The translations under genes were made by a program, and so were the position numbers. From Rubrivivax sp. (lineage in GTDB: Bacteria; Pseudomonadota; Gammaproteobacteria; Burkholderiales; Burkholderiaceae_C): a stretch of DNA of 52,496 nt. Location of the stretch: assembly GCA_021297985.1 (NCBI GenBank), contig JAJTGU010000059.1, forward strand, positions 1-52,496, given 5' to 3'. Shown piece after piece: positions 22,543-43,962 of this stretch. The notes under the pieces are model-generated. The model saw nothing but the letters and a program-made list of their open reading frames with translations, was not told where the DNA came from and did no database searches. How positions within the stretch are numbered: position 1 is the first letter of the stretch; each line of letters opens with the position of its first letter.

Positions 22543-22586
22543 GGCGGTTTCGAGGCGAAGCGGCTGAACGCGGGGTTCTTTCCGTC

Positions 22587-23149: not shown

Positions 23150-23212
23150 GCGGCTGCGTGGCCCGCGACGGCCGCAACAGCAGTGGGGCTCATCTCGGGC
23201 GGCCTGCCGGCC

Positions 23213-24544
23213 TCAGCGTCCGAACACCTGGGTGCCACCGACGAAGCTGGAGCCCGTGTTCAGGAAGGTCGAAAACAGGATCCCCGCGGCGTCCTTGCCG
23301 GCGAAGGTGCCGGCAAAGTTGCTGCCCGCCGGCAGGAAGGCCAGGCAACCGGCGCAACTGCCGCCGGTGTAGTTGCCCCGGAAGCTGCCGGCCGCTGAAT
23401 TGGCCGCCCATTCGGCCTGGCCGCTGAGGTTGCTGAAGTTCAGGTCGCCGATCCGGAACCCCAGGGTCTGGAGCAGGATCGCGCGGTTGGCGAAGTCGAC
23501 CCGGATGCTGCCGCTCACGTCCTGCAGGCTGCCGCCGCGCGGCGTGAAGCTTGCGGTGCCGCTGCCGGGCATGCGCGGGGTGGCTTCGGCAAACATCGTG
23601 TCCACCGTGCCGAGCACCGGAGCGACGACGTTGACGCCGTTGATGCGCACGCTGGCCGATGCACCCGGCGCCGAGTTCCACTGGCCCCACTGCACCCGGG
23701 TGCCGTCGGCGAGGCTGGTCTCGCCCGACGCCACCGCCTGCGCACCGCCGCGCAGCGCCTGGAATTCGCCGGCCTCGCCCACCGCCTCGAGCACGTTGTT
23801 CGCCACCCGGAAGCGTTCGTTGCGCCACTCCTGGTTGTTGTCCAGCGTGACCGGCACACCCCCGTCGGCGGTGTAGCGGTAGGCCAGAGCCACGGCCAGG
23901 TTGGGGACGAACTGGCCGGTCGCGCCGGCTGGGTTGCTGGTGTAGGCACTGTCGTTGGCGCGCGCGGTCTCGGTGGGCGGAACGACGACGACGTTCTGGC
24001 CCGCCTGCATCGCCGCGACGGCGCGGCTGGCGTCGATCGCGTAGGTCTGCTTGCCGCGATCCACTGCGGCGCCCGCGGCGGCGGCAACAGCGGCCCGCAG
24101 CTGAACGCTGCCCCCGATGTTCACATCCGGCATGGCCTGCTGTTGTTCAACAGCCAGCGCGAAGTTCGGGTCCAACTGGGCGGCCCGCCGGAACGACTCG
24201 CGGGCCTGGGCGTATCGGCCCTGGTCCTTCAGCGACAGGCCTTCGGAAAACGCGCGGAAGGCCTCGAGGTTGGTGGTCTGGAAGCGCTCGATGCGCTGGC
24301 GGATGTCGGGTGGCAAGGACTCCAGCGGAATGCCGGCGGCCCGCAGCACGCCGAAGGTGACGGCCTTCTGGGCCCGGAACAGCGCGGCGATCTCGCCACG
24401 CTCGCTGGTGACGCCCAGGTTGCGGCCGGTGGCACTGTCGAGCACGGCGCTTTCAAGCGCAAAGCTCTGTGCCGATGCGGGGCCGGCAAGGACGGCTCCC
24501 AGGGCGGCCACCAGCGAAACGACCCAGGTCTGCAGGGTGTTCAT
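23213..24544 (-). CDS. Secreted TPR protein with C-terminal TbpB-like barrel, possible Slam cargo
   Basis: 443 residues. A Sec signal peptide (about 1-26, ending in GPASAQ) has no lipobox cysteine. A TPR-like pair covers about 90-135 (SLKDQGRYAQARESFRRAAQ). A middle Ala-rich segment (about 140-190) is followed by a domain of unknown type. The last 140 residues look like the small beta-barrel of transferrin-binding-protein-like solute-binding proteins: SGSIRVDFANRAILL, SFRGNYTGG, then GTFAGKDAAGILFSTFL and a C-terminal VFGR. That barrel is the export signal of known Slam (type XI) cargo, and a Slam-like gene is two genes upstream. I am moderately sure of the barrel and less sure of its role. 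It is one base after the FecR gene stop. It could instead be an anchor or accessory protein for the adhesin. Confidence 0.7.
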   Translation of the reverse strand: MNTLQTWVVSLVAALGAVLAGPASAQSFALESAVLDSATGRNLGVTSERGEIAALFRAQKAVTFGVLRAAGIPLESLPPDIRQRIERFQTTNLEAFRAFSEGLSLKDQGRYAQARESFRRAAQLDPNFALAVEQQQAMPDVNIGGSVQLRAAVAAAAGAAVDRGKQTYAIDASRAVAAMQAGQNVVVVPPTETARANDSAYTSNPAGATGQFVPNLAVALAYRYTADGGVPVTLDNNQEWRNERFRVANNVLEAVGEAGEFQALRGGAQAVASGETSLADGTRVQWGQWNSAPGASASVRINGVNVVAPVLGTVDTMFAEATPRMPGSGTASFTPRGGSLQDVSGSIRVDFANRAILLQTLGFRIGDLNFSNLSGQAEWAANSAAGSFRGNYTGGSCAGCLAFLPAGSNFAGTFAGKDAAGILFSTFLNTGSSFVGGTQVFGR

Positions 24545-24545
24545 G

Positions 24546-25841
24546 TCATTGCACCTCGAAGTTGCCGACGATGACCTTTTCGGCTCGCAGAAGCTGGCCG
24601 GTACGCACCGCACTGCGCGGATCGGCGATGCCGCTGGACCCGAGCCTGGCTTCGTCGACCAGCAGCTGGACCTTCTCGCGCTCCAGGACCTTCAGACCCG
24701 GCACCTTGGACAGGTCGGCGATGATCATCGCGGCCAAGCCCTTCGCCATCGCCGCATACGCGTCGCGGCTGGCCTCTGCGCTTGGGGTGCCGCCGGCGCG
24801 CGACACGAAGGCCTGCACGGCGATGCTGCCCGGCTCCGGAGGCGTGCTGGCGATCTCGCGTTCGCGCGCCACGGCGGCGCTCACTTCCTGTTGGAGCTGG
24901 TTGCTCGACAGCAGGGTCAGCGTCTTGGGCAACTCGCGTTCGGCGGCGCCGGCCGGGTCGTCGCGCGAGTACTGCTGCAGCAGGGCCAGCGCGTTGGCGG
25001 TGTCTTCGCGCCGCAGGGCAATCAGGCCGAGGTAGTAGCTGAGGATCGCCTCGCCCGGCGCCGCGGCCTGGGCCTTGCGCAGCAGGGATTCGGCGGCGTC
25101 GTAGCGGTTGTCCTTGAAGGCGTCCAGCCCCTGCTTGATCTGCTCGGCTGCCGCGGCGCGGGCGGCTTGCGCTGCGGCCTGCAGTCCCAGGTCTTCGAGC
25201 AGCGCCGGCGTGCGCGCCAGGACTTCCGGCCGTTGCGACGCGTCGGCCCAGCGGAAGCTGCGGTTGCGCAGCACGCTGCGCCCGCCGGAGAACTCGGCCA
25301 CCGCCTCGCCCAGGGCGCTGCGGCCGTACAGGCCCGCCGGCGCGGCGCAGCCCAGCGCGGCACGGCAGTCCTGCAAGCGCAGGTAGCCCGCGGCGCGCAG
25401 CAGCGGGGCACGGCTGTTGCCCGCCGCCGGCCCCTGCAATTGCCACGCACCCGCTGCACCGCTGGACAACAGCAGCCCGCCTTGGCGCAGCTGCAGGCTG
25501 CGCTCGCCCAGGGTTGTGCCTTCGGCAGGCCAGCGCAGCTCGGTGTTGGGTGGCAGCTGCAAGAGGCTGCCGTCGTTGCCCTGGAGCTGGATCTGGCCTC
25601 CGGCGCCGGTGCGCAAGACGCTGCCGCTGGCCAGCGCAGACCCGGCGTCGAGCGGCCGAGCGGCGCCGCCCGCCTGCACGCTGGCCTCGCCGCGGCTGTA
25701 GGTCACGGTCCAGGCAAACGGGGCCGCGGCGGTCTGGGCCATTGCGGTGCCGGTGGCCCAGGCCAGCAGCAGGGACGCGGCGACAGTGGCGCCGTTGGAG
25801 CGACGGGCCAGCTTGGGGGGCGGACGGAGGGTGCGGGACAT
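24546..25841 (-). CDS. FecR-domain protein with TPRs and CsgG-like C-terminus
   Basis: 431 residues with a signal peptide (about 1-36, TGTAMAQTAAA). The FecR-type domain (about 45-105) reads YSRGEASVQAGGAARPLDAG, and continues with GSVLRTGAGGQIQLQGNDGS. A helical TPR stretch (about 225-285) includes GLDAFKDNRYDAAESLLRKA. The C-terminal 100 residues resemble the CsgG/FlgO-like fold: LKVLEREKVQLLVDEARLG, then SSGIADPRSAVRTGQLLRAE and VIVGNFEV. The same pattern (LGSS.(L/I)AD......G.LL.A) occurs in the proteins at 40369-41085 and 41082-43340. FecR domains with this architecture are usually periplasmic and often sit beside large surface proteins. The function is not established. It lies 37 bases after the Slam-like gene. 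Confidence 0.82.
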   Translation of the reverse strand: MSRTLRPPPKLARRSNGATVAASLLLAWATGTAMAQTAAAPFAWTVTYSRGEASVQAGGAARPLDAGSALASGSVLRTGAGGQIQLQGNDGSLLQLPPNTELRWPAEGTTLGERSLQLRQGGLLLSSGAAGAWQLQGPAAGNSRAPLLRAAGYLRLQDCRAALGCAAPAGLYGRSALGEAVAEFSGGRSVLRNRSFRWADASQRPEVLARTPALLEDLGLQAAAQAARAAAAEQIKQGLDAFKDNRYDAAESLLRKAQAAAPGEAILSYYLGLIALRREDTANALALLQQYSRDDPAGAAERELPKTLTLLSSNQLQQEVSAAVAREREIASTPPEPGSIAVQAFVSRAGGTPSAEASRDAYAAMAKGLAAMIIADLSKVPGLKVLEREKVQLLVDEARLGSSGIADPRSAVRTGQLLRAEKVIVGNFEVQ

Positions 25842-25878
25842 GGACTTGGAGACTCCGGGTGCAGTCAGGGCCAGGGCT

Positions 25879-27249
25879 TCAAGGCTGGTAACGCGCCTTC
25901 AGCGCAAAGCTCTGGCGGCGGCTGTCGTACAGATCCTGGTTCGAGCGGTTGATGCTGGCCTGCCACTCGGCACGCAAGGTCCAATGGCGCGACGCGGCCC
26001 AGCTCGCGACAAGGTCGAGGTTGGCCGACGTGTCCTGACGAACGCTGTTGAAGACGACATCGACCGCGCGGTAGCGCGACTGCGCCAACGCGACGCCGCC
26101 GTTCAGCCGCCAGTTGGGCGCCGGGCTCAGGCCGACGCTCAAGCGCAGCTGAGGGCTCTGGCGGCTCAGGTCGCGGCGCAGACGCACGTTGTCCTCCTGC
26201 GTGTAGCCCGCACGCAGCCCCAGGCTCCAAGCCAACGCACCCCCGAGGCTGCGGTTGGCCGACATGGCCAGCGTCGAGCTGCGCGAGTCACGCACTTCGT
26301 CGGCGCGGTTGTTGCGCAGCTCGCCGTACTGGCCCAGCAGCCCGAGCTGCCAGCCGTTGGCCAGGGCACGCTGCCACTCGGCACCGACGGCGAAGTTGTC
26401 GCGGTTGTGGCTGCCGCCGACGGCCAACGCGTTCCAGCCCAACGTGGTGCGCCAGAGGCCTTGTTCGACGAGCTGCGTGAAGCCCATCTGCACGGTGGCG
26501 CTGGTGAGGTCGAACTCGCGCTCGTCGACGTTGGCCTTGTGGTCCAGGTCGGCGCTGGCAAACACCGAAAAGCGCGATGTCGCGACCCACTGCCGTTGCG
26601 CCCCGAGCGCAAACTGGGCAAAGCTGTCGGCCCGGCCTTGCGACGAGCTGCCGCGGATGTCGACGGTGCCGAAGACCAGCGGCAACTGGTCGCGAAAGGT
26701 GCCGCTGTTGACGTTGCTGTCGTGGCCGATGCCGGCCTCGGCGTAGAAGCGCCCGCTGGCCCGGCCCTCGGTGCTGTCGCGCAGCTGCATCGCGTTCAGG
26801 AAACCTTCGATGTTGGCGCGCACCGCCGGTGGCGGGTTGTAGCGGAGCACGAATTCGAACTCGACACGAGCCCGCGCAAACTCGCCGAGCAGGAAGTAGC
26901 CCCGCGCGAGTTCGAGCCGGGCGCGGTCGTTGGCCGGCACAACGGCCAGGTGGCGTTCCAGCGCCAGCAGGCCTTCGGGCACCCGGCCCGTGTTGACGGC
27001 CGCGATGCCGTACAGGAAATCGAAGTGCGGGTCTCCGGCGCGCCGCGGGCTGCCCTTGGCCAGCGTGTAGGCGGCGTCAAACTGACTGGCCTCGACCAGC
27101 CGGCGCAGTTCAGACAACGGGTCGCCCTGGGCGAGTGCAGTCCCGACGCTGGCGGCACTGGTGGCCCCGGCCAGCAGCCAGGCGGCAGCCCGCAGGCGCC
27201 AGCGCCTGCGGTGCGGCGTTTCGGATCGGATCGAGGTGAAGGGGCTCAT
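25879..27249 (-). CDS. Slam-like / DUF560 outer-membrane protein (TPR plus barrel)
   Basis: 456 residues. A signal peptide (about 1-41, ending GTALAQG) is followed by a periplasmic TPR-like region (about 45-155) with DAAYTLAKGSPRRAGD and RARLELARGYFLLGEFARA, continuing FEFVLRYNPPPAVRANIEGFL. The P-P-x-V-x-x-N-I linker is the hallmark of the Slam/DUF560 family. The rest (about 165-456) has the alternating strand pattern of a 14-strand barrel, ending with QSFALKARYQP. Slams move specific cargo proteins (usually lipoproteins with a TbpB-like barrel) across the outer membrane, and such a protein is encoded two genes downstream. The C-terminal residue is Pro rather than the typical Phe. The start ATG overlaps the adhesin stop (ATGA). 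Confidence 0.8.
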   Translation of the reverse strand: MSPFTSIRSETPHRRRWRLRAAAWLLAGATSAASVGTALAQGDPLSELRRLVEASQFDAAYTLAKGSPRRAGDPHFDFLYGIAAVNTGRVPEGLLALERHLAVVPANDRARLELARGYFLLGEFARARVEFEFVLRYNPPPAVRANIEGFLNAMQLRDSTEGRASGRFYAEAGIGHDSNVNSGTFRDQLPLVFGTVDIRGSSSQGRADSFAQFALGAQRQWVATSRFSVFASADLDHKANVDEREFDLTSATVQMGFTQLVEQGLWRTTLGWNALAVGGSHNRDNFAVGAEWQRALANGWQLGLLGQYGELRNNRADEVRDSRSSTLAMSANRSLGGALAWSLGLRAGYTQEDNVRLRRDLSRQSPQLRLSVGLSPAPNWRLNGGVALAQSRYRAVDVVFNSVRQDTSANLDLVASWAASRHWTLRAEWQASINRSNQDLYDSRRQSFALKARYQP

Positions 27250-30200
27250 CGAGGAGAAGTGTTGCCGAACATCAGGCGGCGCAGTTCCGGGTCGTAGGAC
27301 AAGAGCGGCAGACGCAGCAGATCGGCCAGGCGGATGCGCGTGCTGCCGTCGCTGCTCTGGACCATCAGGCCCGCCGCGTCGCCCAGCCGTGATGACAAGT
27401 CCGACGAAGGCGAGGGGGCGTTGGCCGGGCCCACCGGGTCGTTGGCCGCGCCCTGGCGCAGCAGTTCGCCCAGGGCACGTTCGATCTCACGGGCGTCGAT
27501 GTTCAGAGCGAGCTGTCCATCGCCTCCTCCACCCGCGCTGCCGGCTCCGTCGTCGGTCCGTGGGGCCTTGGGCAGCACGACCAGCAGGCCGTTGACGTAG
27601 CGGATCGAATAGTTGCTGGCGGTGCCCGCCGAGAACTCGGCGTTGCTCGGGACCAGGGCGATCACGGTTCCTCCCGGCGCGCCGGTGCTGTCGCGGGCTT
27701 CGACGACCGTGCCGCCAGCGACGGTGTCGCCGTTGACCAGGTCGCTTGCCGCGGCCTCGACCAACAAGGGCGACGGGTTCGGCGAGCCGGTTTCGCGGAC
27801 CACGCTTTGAGCCGTCACCGTCAGAGGCCGTGGTGTGACGGCCAGCGAGCCGTCGAGCAGCGTGATGCGGTAGTTCGCGGGGTCGAAACTGCCGCCCGAG
27901 ACACCGCTCGCGACGATGCGGTAGGGCAGGGCCGACACGCCAGCCCGGGCGGCGGCACCTTCGCTCGACAGGCTGGCCTGGCCGATGGTCTCGCCGACCA
28001 CCAGACCCGAAGTCGTGAACTCGGTCCCGGTGAAGCTGAAGCCATCGCCATAGACCTTGGCCAGGTTGTTGGCCCGGACGACCAGATCCGCCGGTGTGAT
28101 GCTGGCGCGCAGTTCGATGCGGTCCTGGCCCAGGCGGTAGTTGCCGGCGTCGCTGCCGGTCAGCGAGAAGCCGGACACCGTCACGAGCTTGCCGATGCCT
28201 GCGTTCTTGTCGGCAAAACTGCGGTCCGTGGCAGCGACCTCCAGGGTGTCGCCGGACAGACGGTTGTCGGCCAATCCGACGCTGGCCAGGCGTGTGCCGT
28301 CATAGACCTTGTCGAGCACGCTGGCGGTCAGGCTCAGGTCGCGCGGCGCGATGTTCACCCGCAGGCTGTCGGCGCCCTGCACGCTGTAGTTGCGGGCGTC
28401 GGCCCCCGCGAAGCCCAGGCCTTCGATCGTGACGGGCTTGTCCTGGCCCACGTTCTTGTTGGCCATGCGCGCGGTGAGGGCACCGCCGCCCAAGGCGAAG
28501 TCGTCGCCCGCCAGTACGCCCGAGAGGCTGGGGTTCAGTGCGTCCAGCTGCACGAGGGTCGTCGCGTCGTACACGCGGTCGCGCGCCGTCACGCCGCTGA
28601 GCTGAACCGAGCGCCGGGCGATGTTCACGCTCAGGCCGGCGGTGCCGATGATGGTGTAGTTCGCCGCATCGGCACCGGCGAGCGTCAGGCCGTCGACGGC
28701 CACGGTCTTGGCCTGACCGGCGTGCTTGTCGACCATGGTGCCCGTCGTGGTGCCGGCGGCGCCGCCGGTGACCGTGACCACGTCGCCCGCGATCAGGTCG
28801 CGCGGATCGGGGGCGATGCTGCCGGCCGCGCCGACATTGACGACCACCGTCCGGGTGCCGTCGTAGACCCGGTCCACCGCACTAAGGCCTCCGAGCCCGG
28901 TGACGGTGATCCCGCGCGGGGTGATGCTGGCTGTGGTCGCGGCGCTGTCGGACCGCAGGCTGTAGTTCAGGCTGTCGGCGCCGGTCAGGGCGATGCCGCT
29001 GACGGCCACCGGCTTGTTGTCCCCGGCCATCCTGGCCGATGCGCCGGTGAAGACCGCGGTCTGCGCCAGATTCAGGACATCGCCCGCCACGAGGCCGTCG
29101 ACAACACCGCTGACCGGGGCCACGGTCGTGCCGTCGTAGACCCGTGTGCCACCGGTGTAGACCGCGCCGACCTCACGCCGCGAGATCGTCGCGCTGGCGC
29201 TGCCGCTCGGGTTGGCCAGCGTGTAGTTGCGGGCGTCGAGCCCGGAGAGCTGGCCGGCGCTGACCGATATGAGCTTGCCGACTCCGGCGTTTTTCGCGCC
29301 GTCGCCGGTGAACACACCGCTTCCGGCGATGGTCAGCAGGTCGCCGGCGAGCAGATCGAGTCCGGCCCCGATGACGCTGGCCGCGGTGCTGCCGTCATAG
29401 ACCTTGTCGACGCCGGTCCAGCTGGCGGTCAGCGGCCGTGTCGCGATGTTCACCGTGACGTTGGCCGTGCCCTGCAGGCTGTAGTTGGCGGCGTCTGCAC
29501 CGGTGAGGACGAGACCGCTCACCAGCACCGGCTTGGCGCTGCCGGCGTGCTTGTCGGCCATCGTGCCGCTGGTCGTGCCGGCGCCCGGCAGGCTGACGCC
29601 GACCACGTCGCCCGGCACCAGGTCGGTCGGGTTCGGCGTGACGGCTCCCTGGGCGCCGACGTTGACGGTGACGGCGGTCGTGCCGTCGTAGACCCGGTCG
29701 ACCGCGGAGATGCCGCTCAGGCCCAGCAGGCCCAGTGGACGCGGAACGATGCTGGCCTGGCCGACCACCGTGGTCGCCGCAAGCTGGTAGTTGCCGGCAT
29801 CCTGGCCATTGAGCGTGATGCCGGTCACCTCGACCGGCTTGTCCTGGCCGACGTTCTTGGCGCCTGCCCCCGTGAAGCGCGCGGTCTGCGACAGACCGGC
29901 CACATCTCCTGCGACAAGGCCGTCCAGGGTGCCGGCGACCACCGCGTCGACACTGCCGTCGTAGACCTTGCTGCCGGTGGTGTAGCGGGCATCGACCGTC
30001 TTGCGCAGGATGTTCGCGCTCGCGGTGCCCGTGTTGCTGTCGAGTTGGTAGTTCCCGGCGTCGGCACCGGCGAGCTGCACCCCGGTCACATCGATCGGCT
30101 TGTTGCCGCCGGCGTTGCGTGCCCCGACACCCGTGAACACGCCGCTGCCGGATATGGCGAGCACGTCCCCCGCGATCAGCCCGCCACTGCTGCCGGTGAC

Positions 30201-36200: not shown

Positions 36201-38669
36201 CAGGCCGCCGCCATAGCCGTTCGTCCCGGTGACCACCACATCGCCGCTGGAGGAGCTGTTGGCGATGCCGCGGTACTGCATGTAGCCGACCAGACCGCCG
36301 GCGTAGCCGGTGGCTGAAACGCGCCCCGTCGACGCGCTGGTGTCGATGCCCGAGTCACCGACGTAGTAGCCCACCAGGCCGCCGCTGTAGAAGCCGCCGC
36401 TGACCGGGCCGTCATTGCGGCTGCCAGAGATTCCAGTCGTCCGGGTCGCGTAGCCGATCAGTCCGCCGGCGTAGCTGTTGTTGACGGCGCTGGATCCGAC
36501 ACGGACGTCGGACTCGGAGACGCTTCCCGACAGCCCCAGCTGGGTGTCGCTGTAGCCGATCAGTCCGCCGGCGAAGATCGAGTTGCCGTCACCCGAGACC
36601 GTCGTGGAGCTGAACAACGTGGCCGTCAGACTGGACTCGGCATAGGCGTAGCCGGCGATGCCGCCGATGAAGATGCTGCTGCTGTCTGGCGACACCGCAG
36701 CCACCCGGCCGCCGGTGACCCGGAGATTCGTGAATCCCAGCGCGCGGTCCATGCGCCCAACGATGCCGCCGACGTAGCCACTGCCTCCGACGATGTCGGG
36801 AAGCACCATCGTCAGGTTGGAGATCGTCGCCAGCGAGGCGTAGCCGAAAAGACCGACGTTGCTCTCGTCGGGGCGGCGAATGCTCAGCCCGAAGATCGAA
36901 TTGCCCAGGCCGTCGAAGCGGCCGCGGAAGACGCCATTGCCATTGCCGATGGGCACGAACCCCAGGCCGCCGTTGGTGTTGGCGGTTGCCGTGGCGTCGA
37001 TATCGGTGACCAGCGCGTAGCGGCCTTGCAGCGTCACGTTGCTGGCGCGGATGGCGTCGAGCCCGGCCAGCGAGTTGACGACCGTGTAGCCCAGTCCACC
37101 GATGCTGAGCGTCGGCGCGCTGCCGAGCAGCCGGACCTTGCCACCCACCCCGAGCCGGTGGCTGCCACCGGCGCCGGGATTCAGCACCAGGCCCGCGTTG
37201 TTGCCCGAAGCCGTGATGACGGAGTCGATGTCGATGTGGCGCAGCGCGGTCAGCGTCAGCGTGGTGCTCGCCGTCCAGGACACCGGCGCCAGGATCTTGA
37301 TGTCGCCGGGTTGCGTCCCGGCGTTGCCCTGGCCGTCGCTGGCCGCGGCAGCCAGCGTGACGTTGCCGAGCTGGAGGTTGCTGGACAGCGTCGAGGCCCC
37401 GATGCCCGAGAGGCCTTGCGCACCGGCGCCGGCCGAGACCGTGAAGTCGAACGGGTCGATGGTCCAGGTGCCGTGGCGGCCGGTGCCGGCGAGTGTGCTG
37501 ACCCGGGTGTCGCCGTCGATGCTCACTTGCGCGGCCGAGGTCTCGACCTGGCCACCCTGGCCGCTGCCAGGCGACTGGGCGTCGATGCGACCGGCCACCT
37601 GAACCGAGCCGCGACCCAGGTCGCCCATCACGACGACCCGTCCCGCATCGCCCGCACCGGCGCCATTGGCCTCGATGCGGCCGGTGGTCGCGGCGTGGTC
37701 GCCGGTGATCCACACCTCGCCGCCGCGCTCGACGATGGCGTTGGCGCGGACCAGGCCGCTGTTGTTGACCAGGGAGCCGGCCAGCGCCTGTGCCGAATGC
37801 GCCTGCATGCGCACCGTGCCGCCGTCGGCCAGCAGGTCGCCGCCGTTGAGCACCTGGCCGGCCACGCTGCCCGGCGTCACCGCGGCCGAAATCAGGCCGT
37901 GGCCGGAGAGGCTGACCGTCGCGGCTTCGCCGGAAGCCAGCAGCACCGTGCCAGCGTCGACACGGATCTCGCCCGTGTTGGCGACATCGCGGCCAAACAG
38001 CGCGACATAGCCGCCACTCGTGGCCCGCAAATCGCCGTCGTTGACCACCGGCGCGGAGGAGCCGCCTGCAAACCGGTAGGTGCCAGCGGCAAAGTCCTGT
38101 TGCGACAGGTCCAGCGTCGACGCGACGAGCCCGCCGACATCGACCTTGGCGCCACGCGCGAACAGCACCCCGTTCGGGTTGACCAGGAACACCTGTCCGT
38201 TGGCCGCCAGCCGACCGTAGATCTGGCTCGCCTCGTGGCCGACGATCCGGTTCAGCGCGATCGAGTTCGCGTCGGGCTGCACGAACTGCACCGACGCGCC
38301 GCTCCCGATGCTGAAGGCCTGCCAGTCCAGCCCCAGCGTCGCCGAGCCTTGCTCGATGCGCATCTGGCCGGCGGCCGGCTCGACGATCCGGCCCTGACCG
38401 CTGCGGACGACACCCCCCACCGGCAGCGTCAGCGCCGGCGGTGGCGGCAGGTTCAGGTTGACGGTGCGTGGTGCTGGCGCAGCCGCCGGGGCCGTCTGTC
38501 CGAAGGCCAGCGGCACCGGAGCCAGCCAGGCGGCAAGCAGCAGTGCAATCAAGGGCCGCAGCCGGGCCACCCGAAGGCGCCGCCGCAGCGACCGCGGGCG
38601 GGGTCGGGGTGAAACCTGCCGGCGCGACCGGCCCGAAGTGGCGAGCATGGACATGGTGGACTCCGTCAC
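27246..38669 (-). CDS. Giant filamentous haemagglutinin-like two-partner secretion exoprotein with YDG repeats
   Basis: 3807 residues, about 380 kDa. An extended, arginine-rich signal peptide (about 1-58) precedes the TPS secretion domain (about 80-330), with NSIALNRIVG near 135 and the NPNG box in FLVNPNGVLF near 161-170. Residues about 640-1130 hold at least ten GLUG-type motifs (GGLVGYYxxx). About 1150-3540 is an array of some 26 YDG/MBG-like modules (vYDGT...V, ending in NYxL...). A final MBG-type module is followed by a Ser/Gly-rich linker and a short C-terminal domain, ending RRLMFGNTSPR. The first codon is GTG at 38669, overlapping the transporter stop as GTGA; ATG at 38654 is an alternative. 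It is exported by the FhaC-type protein encoded next to it. Ligand and surface role are unknown; adhesion or matrix formation is inferred from the family. Confidence 0.92.
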   Translation of the reverse strand: MTESTMSMLATSGRSRRQVSPRPRPRSLRRRLRVARLRPLIALLLAAWLAPVPLAFGQTAPAAAPAPRTVNLNLPPPPALTLPVGGVVRSGQGRIVEPAAGQMRIEQGSATLGLDWQAFSIGSGASVQFVQPDANSIALNRIVGHEASQIYGRLAANGQVFLVNPNGVLFARGAKVDVGGLVASTLDLSQQDFAAGTYRFAGGSSAPVVNDGDLRATSGGYVALFGRDVANTGEIRVDAGTVLLASGEAATVSLSGHGLISAAVTPGSVAGQVLNGGDLLADGGTVRMQAHSAQALAGSLVNNSGLVRANAIVERGGEVWITGDHAATTGRIEANGAGAGDAGRVVVMGDLGRGSVQVAGRIDAQSPGSGQGGQVETSAAQVSIDGDTRVSTLAGTGRHGTWTIDPFDFTVSAGAGAQGLSGIGASTLSSNLQLGNVTLAAAASDGQGNAGTQPGDIKILAPVSWTASTTLTLTALRHIDIDSVITASGNNAGLVLNPGAGGSHRLGVGGKVRLLGSAPTLSIGGLGYTVVNSLAGLDAIRASNVTLQGRYALVTDIDATATANTNGGLGFVPIGNGNGVFRGRFDGLGNSIFGLSIRRPDESNVGLFGYASLATISNLTMVLPDIVGGSGYVGGIVGRMDRALGFTNLRVTGGRVAAVSPDSSSIFIGGIAGYAYAESSLTATLFSSTTVSGDGNSIFAGGLIGYSDTQLGLSGSVSESDVRVGSSAVNNSYAGGLIGYATRTTGISGSRNDGPVSGGFYSGGLVGYYVGDSGIDTSASTGRVSATGYAGGLVGYMQYRGIANSSSSGDVVVTGTNGYGGGLVGYHQSYYADSGINDSRASGNVSSTGSSVELGGLVGYYYSTVPDINTRNTGITNSQASGNVNGRSYAGGLVGHFYDINAAAGGGIANSSATGDVAGRIAVGGLVGRYLGYDPIDSSSASGTVSRSISASGTVYLGGLVGQLQNFATDDTGGVQRSYADGAVVLGGDSTRVVSGENLRAGGLIGYADSSNLRTRLSVRDSYSSASVTLVPTVLDGNVSAAGLISDSGVSISNSYASNTIQAAAGNRVTLGGLVTRTIGSGAAPTAVGSFWNTSTSNINISAQGSARTGSQLQQAATFTGWDLASAAGSSAIWRLYEGRTTPLLRGFLTPLSLNLANASKTYDGSNSFGDAVVVGANGPVQNPERILADFGSVDVGARNVTAANLWSTQDGYDIAAAGSATLTIVPRPLTLDGVVAPKVYDGNTTATLLAGGQPQGLVPGEDLGVNLANVVATFADKRVGGEKEVTVTGYAIADGARGKASNYSIPASSLTFSAILPKSVTVGSFQAVPRTYDGTQTVQVTVTPGNTIEGVIAGDQVGVSLAGADVGVMLDRNAGTAKPVLVSGAQLTGADALNYSIAGLDTLRVDIAPKAIVANGIVASDRIYNADTSVSVNTNTATLSGVVAGDLVVLQRQFLTGQMADRHAGNDKPVTVSGFNLRGSEAANYSVTSGAVNVDIARRTVTPFLSRTGSTDRIYDGTTSASVSPSVSFVYPVDNIAFTSDAAQYDNRNVLYDNQGNPAFKTITAGNFALSGDATNLANYVLGSTSATTTGRISPKPLTLTGVSAVNRVYNGNVNVDVLVQDANVDRAGVIGADVVNVSVPANGAVVGTMADKRAGTQKLVTVPNLSLTGTDAGNYTLGGGAGVRVDIAPKGITSVYTGVDRIYNGSTWVNVTSTTSDVLPGDQVTLYSNACGANLGNCGIGTFSGANAKDVGQGKAASVTGDMLWTGADVSNYVLLNGNFSNPGTTTANVTPKPITVAFTGGTKVYDRSTEAPVSLNRGGSGIVGNDVVTTTQTAVFTVAGGGANVGQNKAVAVSDIALGGAGASNYTLVATTAVATASVTAKAVTLSGIAASNRVYDGTTLVQVQGNNVGSSGFIAGDDVRVEPPAGGFTTGSIPDKNVGLAKPVTVTGLSLAGQQAGNYLIDASGSGITVDIARRPVTVAYTGIDRVYNGGVTAQVTSSTADLIAGDVVTISQSAVFVGDGARNVGQDKAIAVSNIALGGAGAANYLLANTTAQTFADITARGITVAYLGSSRVYNGLGDLTAPVQGTSPQLVAGDIVGFSQTAVFAGDGSAGNDKPVNVSNIALTGANAANYSLQSTTATTTASVTRRPVAVSGITAQNRVYDGTATVQVTLGNVVVDPNARVGNDQVDVVLPGQPLTTGTAVLDGRPDRNAGTNKPVAVDGLGLTGAQAANYMLAGTTATVNITPKPVSATYSAVDRVYDGSTDAAVSGTLDGVLAADLARLGVQASGAFTGAGARNAGADKAVSVSGGFLTGLERDNYLLSNSTGSTTASILQRLATVSFVGQGKVYDGTAAAFVTGTAGNRVAGDNLTLTQSAVFTGDAATARRVGNNKPVSVSNIALAGDDAANYRLDTNTATTTASITPKPITVAGLEQVVAQGRVYDGTNVVTVNVPAGVPLTPRSDDIIAGDDVTVAVPGNGVVSGTLQNKNAGVNRPVRVDGLLLSGVDAVNYSILGTSGIVATISPRPISAVYSGQGRAYDGTVQVSIGGSSAGVLPGDVVSFSGQGVFTGVGAKNVGNNKAIDVLTASLGGVDGGNYLLLNPAGTATGSISPRAITPSYLGGSKVYDGTTTATVSDRGSGFIAGDDVRLTQTARFANKNAGNDKAINVTSIGLAGGDAFNYRLSQTTASTAGTIEQRPVGILGLTGVTAVDRPYDGTTQVVVNIAASGQVVADPADLIQGDSIVVNVPQAGAGTGTIANKNAGLNKAVTVDGLSLSGTDAGNYRIAAAAGVTVDISRRTIAASFTGVDKVYDGTVAASVTGSSGGLIAGDVLAISGSGVFTGVGARNAGGNKPIDVTGVQLAGADAGNYQLDSNTGTASANILRKTVDARYTTGSKVYDGSVDAVVAGTLDGLVAGDVAGLSQTARFTGAGAKNVGQDKPVEVTGITLNGQDAGNYQLAATTVVGQASIVPRPLGLLGLSGISAVDRVYDGTTAVTVNVGAQGAVTPNPTDLVPGDVVGVSLPGAGTTSGTMADKHAGSAKPVLVSGLVLTGADAANYSLQGTANVTVNIATRPLTASWTGVDKVYDGSTAASVIGAGLDLLAGDLLTIAGSGVFTGDGAKNAGVGKLISVSAGQLSGLDARNYTLANPSGSASATISRREVGAVYTGGTRVYDGTTVAPVSGVVDGLVAGDVLNLAQTAVFTGASARMAGDNKPVAVSGIALTGADSLNYSLRSDSAATTASITPRGITVTGLGGLSAVDRVYDGTRTVVVNVGAAGSIAPDPRDLIAGDVVTVTGGAAGTTTGTMVDKHAGQAKTVAVDGLTLAGADAANYTIIGTAGLSVNIARRSVQLSGVTARDRVYDATTLVQLDALNPSLSGVLAGDDFALGGGALTARMANKNVGQDKPVTIEGLGFAGADARNYSVQGADSLRVNIAPRDLSLTASVLDKVYDGTRLASVGLADNRLSGDTLEVAATDRSFADKNAGIGKLVTVSGFSLTGSDAGNYRLGQDRIELRASITPADLVVRANNLAKVYGDGFSFTGTEFTTSGLVVGETIGQASLSSEGAAARAGVSALPYRIVASGVSGGSFDPANYRITLLDGSLAVTPRPLTVTAQSVVRETGSPNPSPLLVEAAASDLVNGDTVAGGTVVEARDSTGAPGGTVIALVPSNAEFSAGTASNYSIRYVNGLLVVLPKAPRTDDGAGSAGGGGDGQLALNIDAREIERALGELLRQGAANDPVGPANAPSPSSDLSSRLGDAAGLMVQSSDGSTRIRLADLLRLPLLSYDPELRRLMFGNTSPR
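28200..35200 (-). repeat. YDG/MBG repeat array with a three-module super-repeat
   Basis: Coding repeats inside the giant exoprotein. About 26 vYDG boxes occur, and on the + strand they appear as gtcgtagac-like strings at roughly 28309, 28567, 28857, 29131, 29393, 29685, 29961, 30222, 30508, 30775, 31037, 31327, 31608, 31878, 32168, 32430, 32694, 32968, 33244, 33552, 33832, 34125, 34390, 34670, 34944 and 35178. The A-type unit (xxRVYDG with a longer leader) recurs at 28857, 29685, 30508, 31327, 32168, 32968 and 33832: about every 0.8 kb (800 to 864). Between them are one B and one C unit each, so the array is a set of A-B-C triplets. One B unit carries a cysteine-containing insertion near 33445-33490. 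Confidence 0.85.
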
Positions 38670-40372
38670 GGCAACAGGCTGACCGTGAAGTACAGGCGAG
38701 GCTTGCTGTCCCCGCCTTCGGCACTGGGCTCGCGCTTGCCGCGCCAGGCCAGGCTGGCGCCGACCGCAAGGTCGCCACGGCTCCAGTTCAGGCTCAGGCC
38801 GGTGCCGGCGAGGTCGGGCTCGTTGGCGGCGCCCGGCGTCGTGCCGGAAATGCTGAAGCGCCCGCTGGCGCGTTCATGGAACAGTCCGGCGCTGAACTGC
38901 CCGCCCTGGAAGGCGTGCGCCCAGCGCAGCTCGACGCTGCCGATCCAGCCTTCGTCGACCACTGCCTCGCCCGGCGCGTAGGAACGCACGGCGTAGGGCC
39001 CGGAAAGCGCGAGCTTTTCCGAGCTGTCGAGCGGCGAACCCGTCAATTGGCCCTGCCCGCGAAGGCCCAGGCTCCAGTCCTTGGCCAGAGACTGCTGGCG
39101 CGCCAGGCTCCATTGCAGCTTGCGCCAGCTTGGCGCCGCGCCGAGCAGGGAAGGGGGTGCATTGCCGAGCTGGCGCAAGGCGCCCAACGATGCCGTGACG
39201 CTGGCGCTTGACCCGGCCGCGTTGCCCCACAAGGCGTCACGCCAGTCGGTCTGCACGCCCAGAGCAAGGCTGCGGTTGCGGCGCAGGCGGTTGGTGCCGA
39301 GTTCGGGGATGTCGGCCACCACGGTCTCGTCGCGCAGGCGCTTGTCCTCAGCTTCGACCGACAGCCGGATGTTGGCATCGAGCGAGCGGACCAGCGGGTA
39401 CAGGCCGCGCAACTGCAGCGCGTCGGCGCTGCCGACGGCACCGACGCGGGCAAAGACGCCGCCCAGCTGGTACTGCAACCGGGACAGCGATGCACCGAGC
39501 TTCCAGCCGTCTCCACCCACCGGCCACAACATCCCGATGCTGCCGCTGACCAGGCCGCCCTGGCGTCCGACCAGGGCACGGGCGGTGAACAGGTCGCCGT
39601 GGCCGAAGACATCGCGGAGTTGCAGCCCGACGCTGCCGCGCAAGCCGCCACTGGACCGGCTGCCGTGGTTGTCGATTTCGAGGCGCGTCTCCAGCGGTTC
39701 CTCTTCGAGCACGGTGACGACCAGTTCGGCACCGCCCAATGTCGCGCCGGGCGCCACGGCGGCACGTGCCGTCACGCCGGGCAGGTCGTTCAGCAACAGC
39801 ATCTGCCGCTCGACCTGCGCCTGCAGGACAGGCTGGCGTTGCGTCAGTGCGTCGGTGTGGGCCTGGACGACTTCTTCTCGCAGGCGGACCTCCGAGCCGG
39901 TCACGGTCTGCACCGCTTCGAGCCGGCCTTCGAGCACGGCGATCTCGACCGTTCCCCCGTCGACACGCTGCGCCGGCAGATAGGCGTAGGTCAGGAAGTG
40001 GCCGGCCGCCTGGTAGTGGCGCGTGATCGCACCGGCGGCCTCGTTCAGGCCGCGCAGGTCAAGCCGCTTGCCGACCCAGGGCTTGACGAGGTCGGCCAGC
40101 AACTCGGGTGGGAACGAAACCGCACCGCTGATGCGGAATGCGCTGGCCAGCACCGTCACGCCTTCGGGCAACTCAACCGTCGGGCGTACCGGCGGCTGGA
40201 TCAGCCGCGGCGGCGGAGCCGTTGTCGGCGCCGGCGCCGCTTGCGGCCGCGTCTGTTCGAGCAGGCGGCCGGCATCGGGGGCGGTCTGGGCCAGCGCGCC
40301 CGCGCCTGCGAAGGCAAAACCCAGCACGAAGAATGACCGGGCAATTTGAAAGCAAAGGTGACTGGGGCTCAC
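38666..40372 (-). CDS. FhaC/ShlB/HecB family outer-membrane transporter (TpsB)
   Basis: 568-residue transporter of two-partner secretion (type Vb). A signal peptide (about 1-30, FVLGFAFAGAGALAQT) is followed by a proline-rich linker (about 40-60, PPPRLIQPPVRPTVELP). A POTRA domain spans about 64-140, with ASAFRISGAVSFPPELLADL, and a second, shorter POTRA follows. A 16-strand barrel (about 210-568) ends in RLYFTVSLLP. The start is GTG at 40372, overlapping the stop of the upstream CsgG-like gene as GTGA. It would export the giant protein encoded directly downstream; a second GTGA overlap joins the two, so the pair is translationally coupled. Confidence 0.92.
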   Translation of the reverse strand: MSPSHLCFQIARSFFVLGFAFAGAGALAQTAPDAGRLLEQTRPQAAPAPTTAPPPRLIQPPVRPTVELPEGVTVLASAFRISGAVSFPPELLADLVKPWVGKRLDLRGLNEAAGAITRHYQAAGHFLTYAYLPAQRVDGGTVEIAVLEGRLEAVQTVTGSEVRLREEVVQAHTDALTQRQPVLQAQVERQMLLLNDLPGVTARAAVAPGATLGGAELVVTVLEEEPLETRLEIDNHGSRSSGGLRGSVGLQLRDVFGHGDLFTARALVGRQGGLVSGSIGMLWPVGGDGWKLGASLSRLQYQLGGVFARVGAVGSADALQLRGLYPLVRSLDANIRLSVEAEDKRLRDETVVADIPELGTNRLRRNRSLALGVQTDWRDALWGNAAGSSASVTASLGALRQLGNAPPSLLGAAPSWRKLQWSLARQQSLAKDWSLGLRGQGQLTGSPLDSSEKLALSGPYAVRSYAPGEAVVDEGWIGSVELRWAHAFQGGQFSAGLFHERASGRFSISGTTPGAANEPDLAGTGLSLNWSRGDLAVGASLAWRGKREPSAEGGDSKPRLYFTVSLLP

Positions 40373-41085
40373 TGTCGGCGCATCCGTTCCAAAACACGCG
40401 GCACCTGACGTTCCGCCGGCACAAAGCCGGGATGCTCCGCGAGCAGGGCCTGCAAGGCGGTCAGCGCTGCGTCGTACTTTTTCTGTTCGGCCAGCGCCAG
40501 GGCCGCATCGAGCTGTCTCCACACAGCCTCAGGATACGCAGCCAGAGCCCCGCCGGCACCCCCCAGAACGCGGATCAGGCGTGGTCCCAAAGCCGCAGAC
40601 GCGGCCATGGTGTCGCCCGATGGCGCCGTGACTTCGTCCGCATGCTCGATGCGGCCGCTGGCGACGTCGACGAGCCGCAGGTTGATCTGGACCTGGTCCC
40701 CCAGGGCAAAGAAGCCCCCGAACACCATGCGCCTGGCGCCCACCAGCCGGCCCAGGCGCAGCCGAGCATCCTGGTCGGCCAACGCGCTGCTGCCCAGTTG
40801 CTGCTCGGCCAGCAACTCGGCCACGCGCATCCGGTCCACCAGCACCAGGCCTGGCAACTGGTCGAGCGCCTGCGCGACCTGCTCGCCCAGCGCGCGACGC
40901 AGCCAGGCGCGTTCGGCCATCGGCAGCAGGGCCATCCCGGGTGGCGTCTGGTCGTCGAAGTCCCACACCACCAAGCCAGTCGGTGCCGCAGCCGAGTTTG
41001 CCGTCGCGGCCCCTGCGCAGGCCCCAACCGCGCCCAGGACGGTCGCGGTGGCAGCGGCAAGCCAGGTGCGGCGGTTCAGGGTCAT
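40369..41085 (-). CDS. Small CsgG-like protein
   Basis: 238-residue exported protein. The signal peptide (about 1-23, MTLNRRTWLAAATATVLGAV) ends in GACAGA: VGAC could be a weak lipobox, so the protein may be a lipoprotein. The body resembles CsgG/FlgO-type domains: VVWDFDDQTPPGMAL, LVLVDRMRVAELLAEQQLG, then SSALADQDARLRLGRLVGA and GRIEHADEV. The C-terminus has a TPR-like helical pair (AEQKKYDAALTALQALL). The last third of the neighbouring caspase protein has the same F.DQTPP...LGSS.LADQD...RLGR pattern. The start overlaps the caspase stop in ATGA. CsgG forms an outer-membrane pore for curli; whether this shortened version does so is unknown. Confidence 0.8.
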   Translation of the reverse strand: MTLNRRTWLAAATATVLGAVGACAGAATANSAAAPTGLVVWDFDDQTPPGMALLPMAERAWLRRALGEQVAQALDQLPGLVLVDRMRVAELLAEQQLGSSALADQDARLRLGRLVGARRMVFGGFFALGDQVQINLRLVDVASGRIEHADEVTAPSGDTMAASAALGPRLIRVLGGAGGALAAYPEAVWRQLDAALALAEQKKYDAALTALQALLAEHPGFVPAERQVPRVLERMRRQ

Positions 41086-43340
41086 TCGTTGCGAGCGATC
41101 ACGCGGAGGTTCTGGGTCAACGGTCCCTTGGCATCCGAGACGCGGGCATAGGCCAGGAGTTCGTCGACTTGCGTCACCGTCACGCGGCCGAGCACGGTGT
41201 CGCGATGGCCGAGAACCCGGCCGTTGTGTTCGATCGCCTCGCCCTGTCCCAACACGTTGAAGGCCTGCCCGGCCTTCAGCCCGTGCTTCTTGCCCAGATT
41301 GATGATGACCTGTCCGGCCTCGGCGCGGACCACACGCCCCTTCAGGGGGTATTGCTCAGCGACGGCGACCTGGACCTCCTGCGCCATCCCGGAGGCGATC
41401 TGCTCCGGGTCGCTGGGCGCAGCCGCACGGCGGTTGCGCAGCAGCGCGACGCGGGTCGTCTCGGTGTCGATCGCACGCACCGAGGCCGACAGCGCGGCGC
41501 CGTCGCCGACCAGCGTTCCAGTCACGAGCAGCCTGGCGGCGAGCACGCGGCCCAGGCGGACCTGCGTGTCCTGGTCGGCCAGTTCGCTGGAGCCGAGCTT
41601 GGCCTCGGCCATGACCTGGTCGAGCAGGCGACGCTCGACGATCGTGAAGCCGCGCGCCTGCAGCTCCCGCATCAGCGCCTGCTGCAGCACGGCGTCCATC
41701 CCGATGCGCCCCGCCAGGCTGGGTGGCGTCTGGTCCTGGAACGGCAGGACCGCGACGGCCAGCACGGGCGAGGTCCAGTCGTCCGCCGCAGCGCCCGTCG
41801 CGGGCGCGCGGTTGCGCAGGCGCTCGGCCAACTCCTTGGCGGTGCTGTCGATGTAGGCCTGGCGGGCCCGGTCGTCGCGGCTGGCGAGCGACTCCCGGAT
41901 CTGACGCGCAAGCGCCGCGGTGGTGGCGTCTCCGGGCGCCAGCGCCTGGGCGCGTTCGATCGCCGCGAGCGCACCCTTGCCGTCGCCGCCGGCGTCGAGC
42001 GCGACGGCGAGGTTGCTGATGGCCTCGAGGCTGCGCGGGTTCTCGCGCGACGCGCCCTGGTAGGCGACGGCCGCGGCCTTGGGATCCGCACGGTGCTGCA
42101 GATTGCCCAGCGCGACCAGGGCATCGGCCTTCTGCCAGGAGAAATCGGCACTCGTGTTGCGCGCCGCCGCCACCTGCACGGCCTGGGCGCTCTCCTGCAT
42201 CTGGCCTCCCATGGCCAGCGCACGGCCCCGAATCAGGTAGGCGGTGCTTCGTGTCGGGGCCAGCGCGATGATCGCGTTGGCTTCGGTCAGCGCGGCCTGG
42301 GCCTGGCCACGACGCAGGAAGACCTCGGCCAGACCTTCCCGTCCCATCAGCACCACCTCGGGATGTGGTTGCCCGGCGAGCTGGCGGAAACCCCGCTCGG
42401 CTTCGTCGAGACGTCCATTGCGCAGCGCCTCGTGGGCGGCCTCGGCGCGGCCGATCTGCTCAATCCCGGGTGGCGGCGGCAGCAGGTTCACGGCCCGCAC
42501 GCCCGGTGCTTCAGGGAAAAACGCGAAGTCGGCCTCCAGCGAGGTGCTCTCCCATGGCACCTGCGCGCCGTTGCTGTCCAGCCGCACGCCCAGGCGCACG
42601 CGCTTGAAGACCTCTTCGATCGGCGTGCCCGGGCGTTCGATGTTCGCCAGCAGATGCTGGGTGTACAGGCCGTTGGCGCCTTTGCCGTCGCTGGCGACGG
42701 TGCCCGGCGAGGTGGCAAACGCGATCAGCGACCCGGTGGGTGCGTCAAGCTGCGAAAGCCCCCCTGCACCCTTGCGGCCGTCGGGCACGAAAGGGTTGTC
42801 ACGGCAGGCGTCGAGGATGACGACGTTGGTACGGTTGCGGGCCGCTGCCAGGCTGTCGAGAACGACCTGCACGTCGACCGTGCGTGCCGCCACGTCTTCT
42901 TCACGGCGTACGTCCACACCGACCGGCATCAGGTAGTTGCGTCCCTTGAGCTGCAAGGCATGACCCGCGTAATAGAAGAGCCCCACCGCGTTGCCGCCCC
43001 CGGCCGAGCCGCGCACGCGCTGGCCCAGGGCCTGCACCGCGTCCTGCATTTCGCGGCGACCGGCGTTCAGCCGAAGGTCGACGGTGAAGCCGGCGCGCTG
43101 GAGGACTTTGGCAACGGCATTGGCGTCGTTGCCGGCGTTGGGAAGGGGCGCCGCCGAATAGCTGCCGTTGCCGATGACCAGGGCGAAACGAGGCTCGGCA
43201 GCGGCGTGGGCCGCATTTCCGATGCCGCCCACAATGGCCACCACAAGGGCGGCGAGCCAGGGCACAAGCGACTCGCGGAACTTGGCCGCGCGCGCAGCAG
43301 CGGGGGGATGGGCAGAGACATGGACCGGACGCGGATTCAT
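41082..43340 (-). CDS. Caspase-like (C14) protease with TPRs and CsgG-like domain
   Basis: 752 residues, first gene of the 20 kb operon. An N-terminal hydrophobic stretch (about 26-48, ESLVPWLAALVVAIVGG) is a signal peptide or anchor, so the protease is likely periplasmic. The caspase-fold domain (about 50-290) reads FALVIGNGSYSAAPLPNAGN, with catalytic His127 in FYYAGHALQ and Cys179 in ILDACRDNPF; both dyad residues are present. TPR repeats occupy about 300-490. The C-terminal CsgG-like domain (about 520-680) carries AVLPFQDQTPPSLAGR and LGSSELADQDTQVRLGRVLA. The final 90 residues hold a small beta domain (LKGRVVRAEAGQVIINLGKK). The ATG at 43340 is preceded by AGGAG, a good ribosome site. 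Substrate unknown; the downstream secreted proteins are the obvious candidates. Confidence 0.88.
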   Translation of the reverse strand: MNPRPVHVSAHPPAAARAAKFRESLVPWLAALVVAIVGGIGNAAHAAAEPRFALVIGNGSYSAAPLPNAGNDANAVAKVLQRAGFTVDLRLNAGRREMQDAVQALGQRVRGSAGGGNAVGLFYYAGHALQLKGRNYLMPVGVDVRREEDVAARTVDVQVVLDSLAAARNRTNVVILDACRDNPFVPDGRKGAGGLSQLDAPTGSLIAFATSPGTVASDGKGANGLYTQHLLANIERPGTPIEEVFKRVRLGVRLDSNGAQVPWESTSLEADFAFFPEAPGVRAVNLLPPPPGIEQIGRAEAAHEALRNGRLDEAERGFRQLAGQPHPEVVLMGREGLAEVFLRRGQAQAALTEANAIIALAPTRSTAYLIRGRALAMGGQMQESAQAVQVAAARNTSADFSWQKADALVALGNLQHRADPKAAAVAYQGASRENPRSLEAISNLAVALDAGGDGKGALAAIERAQALAPGDATTAALARQIRESLASRDDRARQAYIDSTAKELAERLRNRAPATGAAADDWTSPVLAVAVLPFQDQTPPSLAGRIGMDAVLQQALMRELQARGFTIVERRLLDQVMAEAKLGSSELADQDTQVRLGRVLAARLLVTGTLVGDGAALSASVRAIDTETTRVALLRNRRAAAPSDPEQIASGMAQEVQVAVAEQYPLKGRVVRAEAGQVIINLGKKHGLKAGQAFNVLGQGEAIEHNGRVLGHRDTVLGRVTVTQVDELLAYARVSDAKGPLTQNLRVIARNE

Positions 43341-43476: not shown

Positions 43477-43962
43477 TCAGCTGCCGCTGGCGGGCGTCCG
43501 CGTGACCTTGTGCCGCATCAGGCGCTGCTTCTCGCGGTCCCAGTCGCGCTGCCTTTCGGTGTCGCGCTTGTCGTGCTGGGCCTTGCCCTTCGCCAACGCG
43601 ATCTCGGCCTTCACGAGGCCACCCTTGTAGTGCAGGTTCAGCGGCACGAGCGTGAAGCCCTTCTGCTCGACCTTGCCGATCAGTCGCCGGATCTCGTCCT
43701 TCTTCATCAGCAGCTTCTTGGTCCGGTCGGCTTCCGGGGACACGTGGGTGCTGGCACTGCGCAGCGCATTGATGCGGCAGCCGATGAGGTAAAGCTCGCC
43801 GCCCTTGATCAGCACGTAGCCGTCGGTCAACTGGACCTGGCCTGCGCGGATCGCCTTGACCTCCCAGCCGGCAAGCACCATGCCGGCTTCGTACTGCTCC
43901 TCCACGTGGTATTCGTATCGGGCGCGTCGGTTCTCGGCGATGTGGGAGCTTGTCTTGTTCAT
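43477..43962 (-). CDS. smpB: SsrA-binding protein SmpB
   Basis: 161-residue SmpB. With tmRNA it rescues ribosomes stalled on broken messages. The characteristic [39 protein letters not shown] and the C-terminal basic tail ([19 protein letters not shown]) that mimics the tRNA anticodon arm are all visible. Length and sequence are normal. It diverges from ratA with 51 bases between the starts, an arrangement found in many betaproteobacteria. tmRNA itself is not in this window. Confidence 0.97.

Follow-up and report, generated by a model that had tools for sequence, protein, structure and literature searches.

A locus of seven genes occupies positions 43340 to 23213 (minus strand) of the Rubrivivax sp. 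DNA analysed here, a stretch of 52,496 nucleotides from contig JAJTGU010000059.1 that is hereafter called the window. Profile comparisons assign to its last two genes, genes 6 and 7, one half each of a single CsgG-like domain that is divided at one position. They follow a two-partner secretion (TPS) pair (genes 3 and 4, FhaC and FHA) and a divergent Slam-like barrel (gene 5), while the set is headed by a gene with a caspase domain (gene 1, CASP) and a small CsgG-like gene (gene 2, CsgG2). The seven genes are a real conserved module, separable into parts. The reading that we favour, and to which we give about an even chance, is that of a surface-export module, i.e. a TPS/Slam locus whose FecR and beta-domain parts would be re-joined via the split CsgG fold.

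A CsgG-like domain split between genes 6 and 7

Gene 6 (24546..25841; minus strand, as are all genes and domains of the locus) encodes a leader peptide, FecR and TPR regions, and the first half of the domain (24549..24851, residues 331-431), which terminates at the stop codon. In gene 7 (23213..24544) the second half (24260..24475, residues 24-95) lies immediately behind a leader peptide of its own, and is followed by a TPR region and a C-terminal domain judged beta-rich from its sequence (23216..23992). By eye, each half follows its own leader, and the hydrophobic leaders of the 15 aligned gene 7 orthologues are varied. Pfam profiles matched FecR, TPR and CsgG in gene 6, and only TPR in gene 7.

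The assignment of the two halves comes from profile-profile alignments, made with a gene 6 profile of 16 rows (A3) and a gene 7 profile of 15 rows (A1), from which members with a reading frame over-extended at the start were omitted (for A1, e.g. L032, L033, L037, L040 and L042; loci and genomes are cited by our L and G numbers). Residues 331-430 of gene 6 aligned to positions 29-127 of CsgG2 (E 6e-11), and residues 24-136 of gene 7 to positions 128-229 (E 1.4e-8), the second match abutting the first exactly. Gene 7 was then trimmed to residues 24-95, which excludes the TPR as the cause of the alignment. This segment aligned to a pair of unsplit paralogues (from G462 and G490) at positions 248-309 (E 6e-7), and the gene 6 half aligned just before it, at 167-231 (E 2e-16). 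The E-values of six reversed controls were 0.016 or worse. Moreover, all eight unsplit TPR-CsgG-TPR paralogues tested (L164, L165 and L186-L191; L166 and L168-L171, in which segments of CsgG2 and of gene 7 follow each other in this order, were left out) contain the first and then the second half in a single frame, 13-17 residues apart, with independent E-values of 3e-7 to 0.02 for the second half.

Several comparisons weigh against the favoured reading. The trimmed gene 7 segment reached only E 9e-4 with CsgG2 alone and had no match in gene 1 (E 0.28), and its match in one of the unsplit paralogues (L165) is weak (0.02). In a comparison with E. coli CsgG alone, a good alignment was obtained for the CsgG2 profile only; the unsplit paralogues reached E 0.009, the first half reached E 0.0013 over 37 columns, and the second half had no match. 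In a separate set of searches, solved structures returned TPR chains and chance-level matches for the gene 5, 6 and 7 profiles, mostly TPR chains for an unsplit paralogue, and E. coli-type CsgG chains at only E 0.65 for gene 2.

The stop codon of gene 6 and the start codon of gene 7 lie within 4 bases of each other, as would be expected of a single gene that a sequencing error has broken or that is read with a programmed frameshift. Across 14 loci the offset between them is -4 (10 loci), -1 (one) or +1 (three). These are two different frame relations, therefore there is no shared frameshift, and gene 7 has its own divergent leaders. The split is also present in every locus with both genes on the contig, including the most divergent one (G490). 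A frameshift or assembly error is thus rejected as the origin of this arrangement, and we regard a broken or frameshifted gene as extremely improbable. A search of the window's genome with the gene 6 profile (E 1e-5) found no unsplit paralogue: besides gene 6 itself, it picked up the CsgG parts of genes 1 and 2 and, over a short stretch of the FecR region, a frame of 529 aa (amino acids).

On the reading that we favour, the two halves would re-associate. As there are three CsgG-type folds in this locus, the halves could instead pair with the complete CsgG domains of genes 1 and 2 by domain swapping, or could by now be independent small domains. We consider this distinctly unlikely: the halves are complementary neighbours, stop and start lie no more than 4 bases from each other at the 14 junctions read, and the two are found together wherever both genes are on the contig. 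If the halves do re-associate, nature would here have joined two exported proteins by fragment complementation, using the CsgG fold. Donor-strand complementation in pili is comparable in principle. The split-joint reading predicts a testable partner and contact surface.

Two of the unsplit TPR-CsgG-TPR proteins (L164 6813-7922 and L165 8135-9172) have a lipobox-like leader (LSGC/LTGC).

Conservation and arrangement of the locus

A scan of the Slam-like gene 5 protein against 84,980 species genomes yielded 28 loci (L030-L057), titled as Rubrivivax, other betaproteobacteria and proteobacterial metagenome-assembled genomes, and the genomes of all 28 were searched for genes 1 and 3. The block FHA-Slam-FecR-gene 7 is present in 18 of the 19 loci L030-L048; in the remaining one (L043) the contig ends just after the FecR gene. 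Gene 1 was found at E ≤1.2e-257 in 14 genomes (G150-G162 and G168), in 13 of which it lies with FhaC on overlapping stretches, while in G150 the two are near the ends of different contigs. Eight genomes (G151, G152, G154, G155 and G157-G160) hold all seven genes in the order of the window on a single contig. The other six have the set in two parts on separate contigs: both contigs of G161 and G168 were seen directly to carry part of the repeat-rich exoprotein gene, and for G150, G153, G156 and G162 a contig break was deduced from the coordinates.

Five further arrangements hold the set, or most of the set, together; the permuted ARRANGEMENTS are those of G165, G067, G164/G166, G167, G490 and G163. 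The order is FhaC-FHA-Slam-FecR-gene7-CASP-CsgG2 on a single strand in G165, and CsgG2-FhaC-FHA-Slam-FecR-gene7-CASP in G067. The core block of G164 and G166 ends at a convergent CASP gene, with FhaC on another contig, and G167 has a CASP-type gene and CsgG2 in divergent orientation, about 6 kb upstream of FhaC. In G490 the order is FecR-gene7-Slam, again with a CASP-type gene and CsgG2 divergent; neither FhaC nor FHA is present in the 20 kb read, and FhaC matches elsewhere are just 31-33% identical. In G163, CsgG2-CASP is on a separate short contig. Altogether, almost every locus of L030-L048 has the caspase gene next to the core block, whether in the window's arrangement or in a permuted one (G163 is not decidable). 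The earlier note on this DNA had proposed comparing the gene order with that of relatives, and eight relatives indeed have it; permuted orders occur in other betaproteobacteria.

Might these genes merely be loosely linked neighbours, i.e. separate surface functions (TPS, Slam-like/FecR and caspase/CsgG) with shared regulation and common descent at one site? The conserved order is partly plain inheritance of one site, as the smpB gene is the upstream neighbour in the window and in seven relatives, and the units also occur apart (G490 without a nearby TPS pair, and CASP-CsgG2 alone in G589 and G592). On the other hand, the set stays joined in the permuted orders and in two genomes without the smpB neighbour (G151 and G157, which share flanks of their own), and the scaffold of gene 1 co-occurs with the split pair in 3/3 of the order genomes and 13/15 of the genus draw described below. 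We therefore hold the reading as loosely linked neighbours to be rather unlikely.

The draws behind these co-occurrence counts include, or centre on, genomes that were already under study, and do not count as independent samples; G462 and G167, which share a 60,013-base contig, were counted as one genome. Among 399 genomes of the order, the gene 7 profile matched nine, most strongly the window's own (E 8e-201), G462 (E 1.5e-185) and G490 (E 3.7e-36, positions 18-157 only); the six others were weak, partial matches (E 3e-10 to 3e-7). A profile of the gene 1 scaffold with the caspase part excluded (A4) matched just three of the 399, namely the same three genomes with the strongest gene 7 matches. 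Of 79 Rubrivivax-group genomes, 13 gave a full match to the gene 6 profile and three more a partial one, and the scaffold profile matched 15, i.e. the same 13 plus G589 and G592. In the latter two, the stretches read contain CASP and CsgG2 but no other gene of the set, which makes CASP-CsgG2 a separable sub-unit. The presence of CASP-CsgG2 without gene 6 in two of 15 scaffold genomes speaks against the surface-export reading, as does the lack of any FhaC match in the genome of G163.

The distribution of the system is patchy. In a family draw of 150, just two genomes (that of the window and G067) exceeded a weak partial match to gene 6, and the only other member of the window's genus in the family draw had no gene 6 match at E 1e-5. 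A tblastn search with gene 6 against 72,556 plasmid records, made with plasmid carriage in mind, gave zero matches. A separate observation concerns a 24,372-aa open frame (L024, G109:C185:72024-72209), perhaps a giant surface protein, which weakly resembles the N-terminal part of gene 6 (E 2.8e-6).

Gene layout and junctions

All seven adjacent open reading frames are present on the minus strand, as the earlier note had described for 23213-43340. It had counted overlaps of four bases at five junctions; there are four such overlaps (CASP/CsgG2, CsgG2/FhaC, FhaC/FHA and FHA/Slam), the CsgG2/FhaC overlap on condition that FhaC starts at the GTG at 40372. The gaps it gave were found, with 37 bases between genes 5 and 6 and a single base from the FecR stop to the ATG of gene 7 at 24544. 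This ATG is most likely the start of gene 7, which had previously been placed at 24613. The gene labels proposed at that time stand, except for the description of gene 7 as TbpB-like, for which see below. Within 22500-42499 no sigma-70-like promoter was detected; as the chance expectation is just 0.4, this result is little informative. The set is bounded by smpB (43477-43962), immediately upstream, and by a gene for ureidoglycolate lyase (22655-23149), immediately downstream and on the same strand; the downstream neighbours of the window are absent from every other stretch that was compared.

Enzyme domains of gene 1

The first gene (41082..43340) encodes a leader, a C14 caspase domain (about 42525-43190), a TPR region, a complete CsgG-like domain and FlgT_C (about 41127-41312), with Pfam matches to Peptidase_C14 (127.7 bits), CsgG and FlgT_C. 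The dyad His127/Cys179, proposed earlier to be intact, is indeed so: together with D72 and D177 it is conserved in 15/15 aligned orthologues with a caspase domain. These are among 17 aligned proteins, the other two lacking the caspase (G167, with a thioredoxin version, and G164, a contig-end fragment); the count omits G150, G153, G156 and G162, near whole-protein matches whose residues were not read in the alignment. The best solved relative of gene 1 other than TPR chains is the paracaspase MALT1 (E 4e-5). By eye, we take D72 and D177 to correspond to the S1 pocket of MALT1, and because of this pocket the gene 1 caspase probably cuts after Arg or Lys. Cleavage after Arg or Lys is reported for orthocaspases (PMC6426788). 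The window's genome (G000) has nine caspase-domain matches in all (L001-L009), one of them in the seven-gene locus.

In three genomes (G167, G490 and G660) an AhpC-TSA/thioredoxin (TlpA)-like domain replaces the caspase on the same TPR-CsgG-FlgT_C scaffold, with the motifs CPPC, CAVC or CPVC (G660 being assigned by eye). They are the three genomes with the scaffold (G490, G462, i.e. G167, and G660) in a draw of 61 family genomes, and since all belong to one genus the exchange of caspase and thioredoxin may have been a single event. The enzyme domain is thus a replaceable accessory on the scaffold. That it can be exchanged while the rest of the locus persists argues for a general role in maturation or quality control at the export site, rather than for one required cut. 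Two invariant cysteine pairs, Cys159/Cys165 of gene 6 (16/16 aligned) and Cys397/Cys400 of gene 7 (15/15), can be suggested as possible thioredoxin targets. The exchange offers a clue to leader-bearing bacterial caspases, which may act on a client at the export site.

Next to the thioredoxin version in G490, a Trypsin_2-TPR protease, a PEGA Ser/Thr kinase and a PP2C phosphatase are encoded (L163 10077-14146), and in G167 (contig C5) the translated region that precedes the thioredoxin-TPR-CsgG gene shows, by eye, a similar protease and kinase. A phosphorylation pathway may control the thioredoxin variant.

The earlier note had seen in the seven genes a single machine with a protease that may mature or release the exoprotein or cargo. 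The proposal of a single machine in which the protease matures the exoprotein is not supported in this form, because the caspase can be replaced by a thioredoxin-like domain and CASP-CsgG2 is found without the rest. A related view makes all seven genes one machine and the caspase a protease devoted to maturing the TPS exoprotein or the Slam cargo, as DegP, CtpA and SphB1 do for FhaB. It draws support from the fully conserved dyad, the leader peptide, the relationship to MALT1 and the conserved tail of the exoprotein. Moreover, processing by dedicated proteases is known for TPS exoproteins (PMC8263021). However, G167 has the thioredoxin-like domain and yet keeps FhaC and the exoprotein with the same tail; thioredoxin versions also occur in G490 and G660 (possibly through the same exchange); CASP-CsgG2 stands without the rest in G589 and G592; and inspection of the exoprotein tail by eye revealed no cleavage motif peculiar to caspase-bearing genomes in that part of the protein. 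A dedicated maturation protease is, in our estimate, rather improbable.

Secretion genes and the candidate Slam cargo

Gene 3 (38666..40372, GTG start; the frame is open upstream to 40522) is an FhaC-type TpsB transporter, matching POTRA_2 (56.2 bits) and ShlB (65.6 bits) above the cut-offs. It adjoins gene 4 (27246..38669), which encodes a TpsA exoprotein of 3,807 aa with a TPS domain (about 37698-38393; PF05860, 117.1 bits; adhes_NPXG, 79.9 bits), GLUG and 25 YDG stretches. The last 170 residues of the exoprotein (C-terminal tail, about 27249-27758), which are common to the permuted loci compared, are homologous in 11 loci of canonical order and five permuted ones, including G167 (E 6e-22).

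Gene 5 (25879..27249) encodes a divergent Slam-like/DUF560 outer-membrane barrel with an N-terminal TPR region. Its SlipAM match (37.0 bits) exceeds the cut-off of 22, whereas TPR_19 (20.3 bits) falls below its cut-off of 25, and TPR_Slam was found in one of 21 alignment members. The association of TPS and a Slam-like barrel within one module, pointed out in the earlier note, is supported by the conserved module, which includes a two-partner system as well as the barrel.

We think that gene 7 may be the cargo of this barrel. Its beta-domain, in which a WGxW motif is invariant in the 15 orthologues, is homologous to that of FecR proteins encoded beside distant Slam-like genes (L049, E 1.5e-8; L052, E 2.5e-4). 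The G490 counterpart of gene 7, which adjoins a Slam-like gene, matches Pfam TbpB_B_D (PF01298; 28.3 against a cut-off of 26). Cargo of the type 11 secretion system (T11SS) is described as having a variable N-terminus followed by a C-terminal beta-barrel (PMC12282271). The existence of one-chain FecR-beta-domain proteins suggests a common origin of genes 6 and 7 in a single cargo chain, which would have been opened and joined through the CsgG domain. In loci L049-L057, where the Slam-like gene alone is clearly related, a FecR-domain protein is the next gene in seven of nine cases; these FecR-domain proteins are a candidate new class of T11SS cargo.

Some of the results tell against the Slam cargo reading. 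SlipAM was matched by just four of the 21 members of the gene 5 alignment (E 0.01). A TbpB identity of gene 7 itself is not supported, as 0/15 aligned orthologues match a TbpB family at E 1. The gene 7 beta-domain showed no significant match to L051, L055 or L056, and its matches to the G490 barrels were weak or none (best E 0.0098).

Proposed mode of action

In the surface-export module as we picture it, FhaC would thread the exoprotein to the surface, while the Slam-like barrel would export the gene 7 beta-domain. The N-half borne by the FecR-TPR protein of gene 6 and the C-half borne by the TPR-beta-domain protein of gene 7 would pair in the periplasm and rebuild the CsgG fold. The split domain would in this way be a non-covalent joint by which the surface part is held to the FecR/TPR part in the periplasm and also to the products of genes 1 and 2, which have the CsgG fold as well. 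Finally, the caspase or thioredoxin would act on the exported client at the export site, as a maturation or quality-control enzyme. A fuller version, in which the halves, divided at the site of the CsgG pore hairpin, are a trans-complementing joint of a FecR-barrel cargo that is a single chain in distant relatives and now two chains here, the enzyme is a swappable head on a FlgT-like scaffold, and TPS and Slam-type gates belong to one assembly, is offered tentatively, as we place it somewhat below an even chance.

Comparison with known systems

In the partial coverage that titles and abstract beginnings of the open-licence literature provide, no description was found of this composition, or of a caspase, CsgG or FecR linked with Slam. 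A term search of the main text of the 2012 survey of prokaryotic caspase architectures (PMC3501461) did not return CsgG or FlgT, and FecR, CsgG, caspase, hemagglutinin and two-partner were likewise absent from the main texts of PMC12282271 and PMC8406197. Several components nevertheless resemble known systems. Neighbouring CHAT and TPS genes in cyanobacteria may be a precedent.

Gene 1 resembles orthocaspases and MALT1 in its C14 domain, His-Cys dyad and two conserved Asp residues (D72 and D177), but differs from them in its leader peptide and in its fusion to CsgG/FlgT_C. With FlgT and FlgO it shares a CsgG-like domain followed by FlgT_C, and it also matches FlgO over an overlapping region (24.9 bits, cut-off 22.6); here, however, this part is fused to a caspase or thioredoxin and TPR, and other flagellar families in Pfam were matched by none of the seven genes.

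CsgG2 (gene 2, 40369..41085) is a small protein with a leader, a complete CsgG-like domain (Pfam CsgG match) and TPR. With E. coli CsgG its profile gives an alignment at E 8e-7, but about 23 CsgG residues are missing from it (two gaps, of 16 and 7), around what we take to be the place of the first transmembrane (TM1) pore hairpin, and it has no long TM1-type hairpin. CsgG2 as a third pore, of the curli type, was ruled out for want of a TM1-type insertion, and inspection by eye of 15 aligned CsgG2 leaders showed no conserved lipobox Cys that would indicate a lipoprotein anchor. In genes 6 and 7 the chain is cut at this same place, and a curli-type pore is not expected of them for that reason.

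As in two-partner secretion (type Vb, FhaC/FhaB), a POTRA_2 and ShlB transporter adjoins a TPS-domain exoprotein. The difference is that five additional genes are linked to the pair, and that the exoprotein is a YDG-repeat protein with its own conserved tail. Type 11 secretion (Slam/DUF560) is represented by gene 5, which exceeds the SlipAM cut-off but is divergent and linked to TPS and FecR. In the T11SS cargo pattern (PMC12282271), gene 7 would find its place through a beta-rich-looking C-terminal domain behind a differing N-terminal region, which in this case consists of a CsgG half and TPR.

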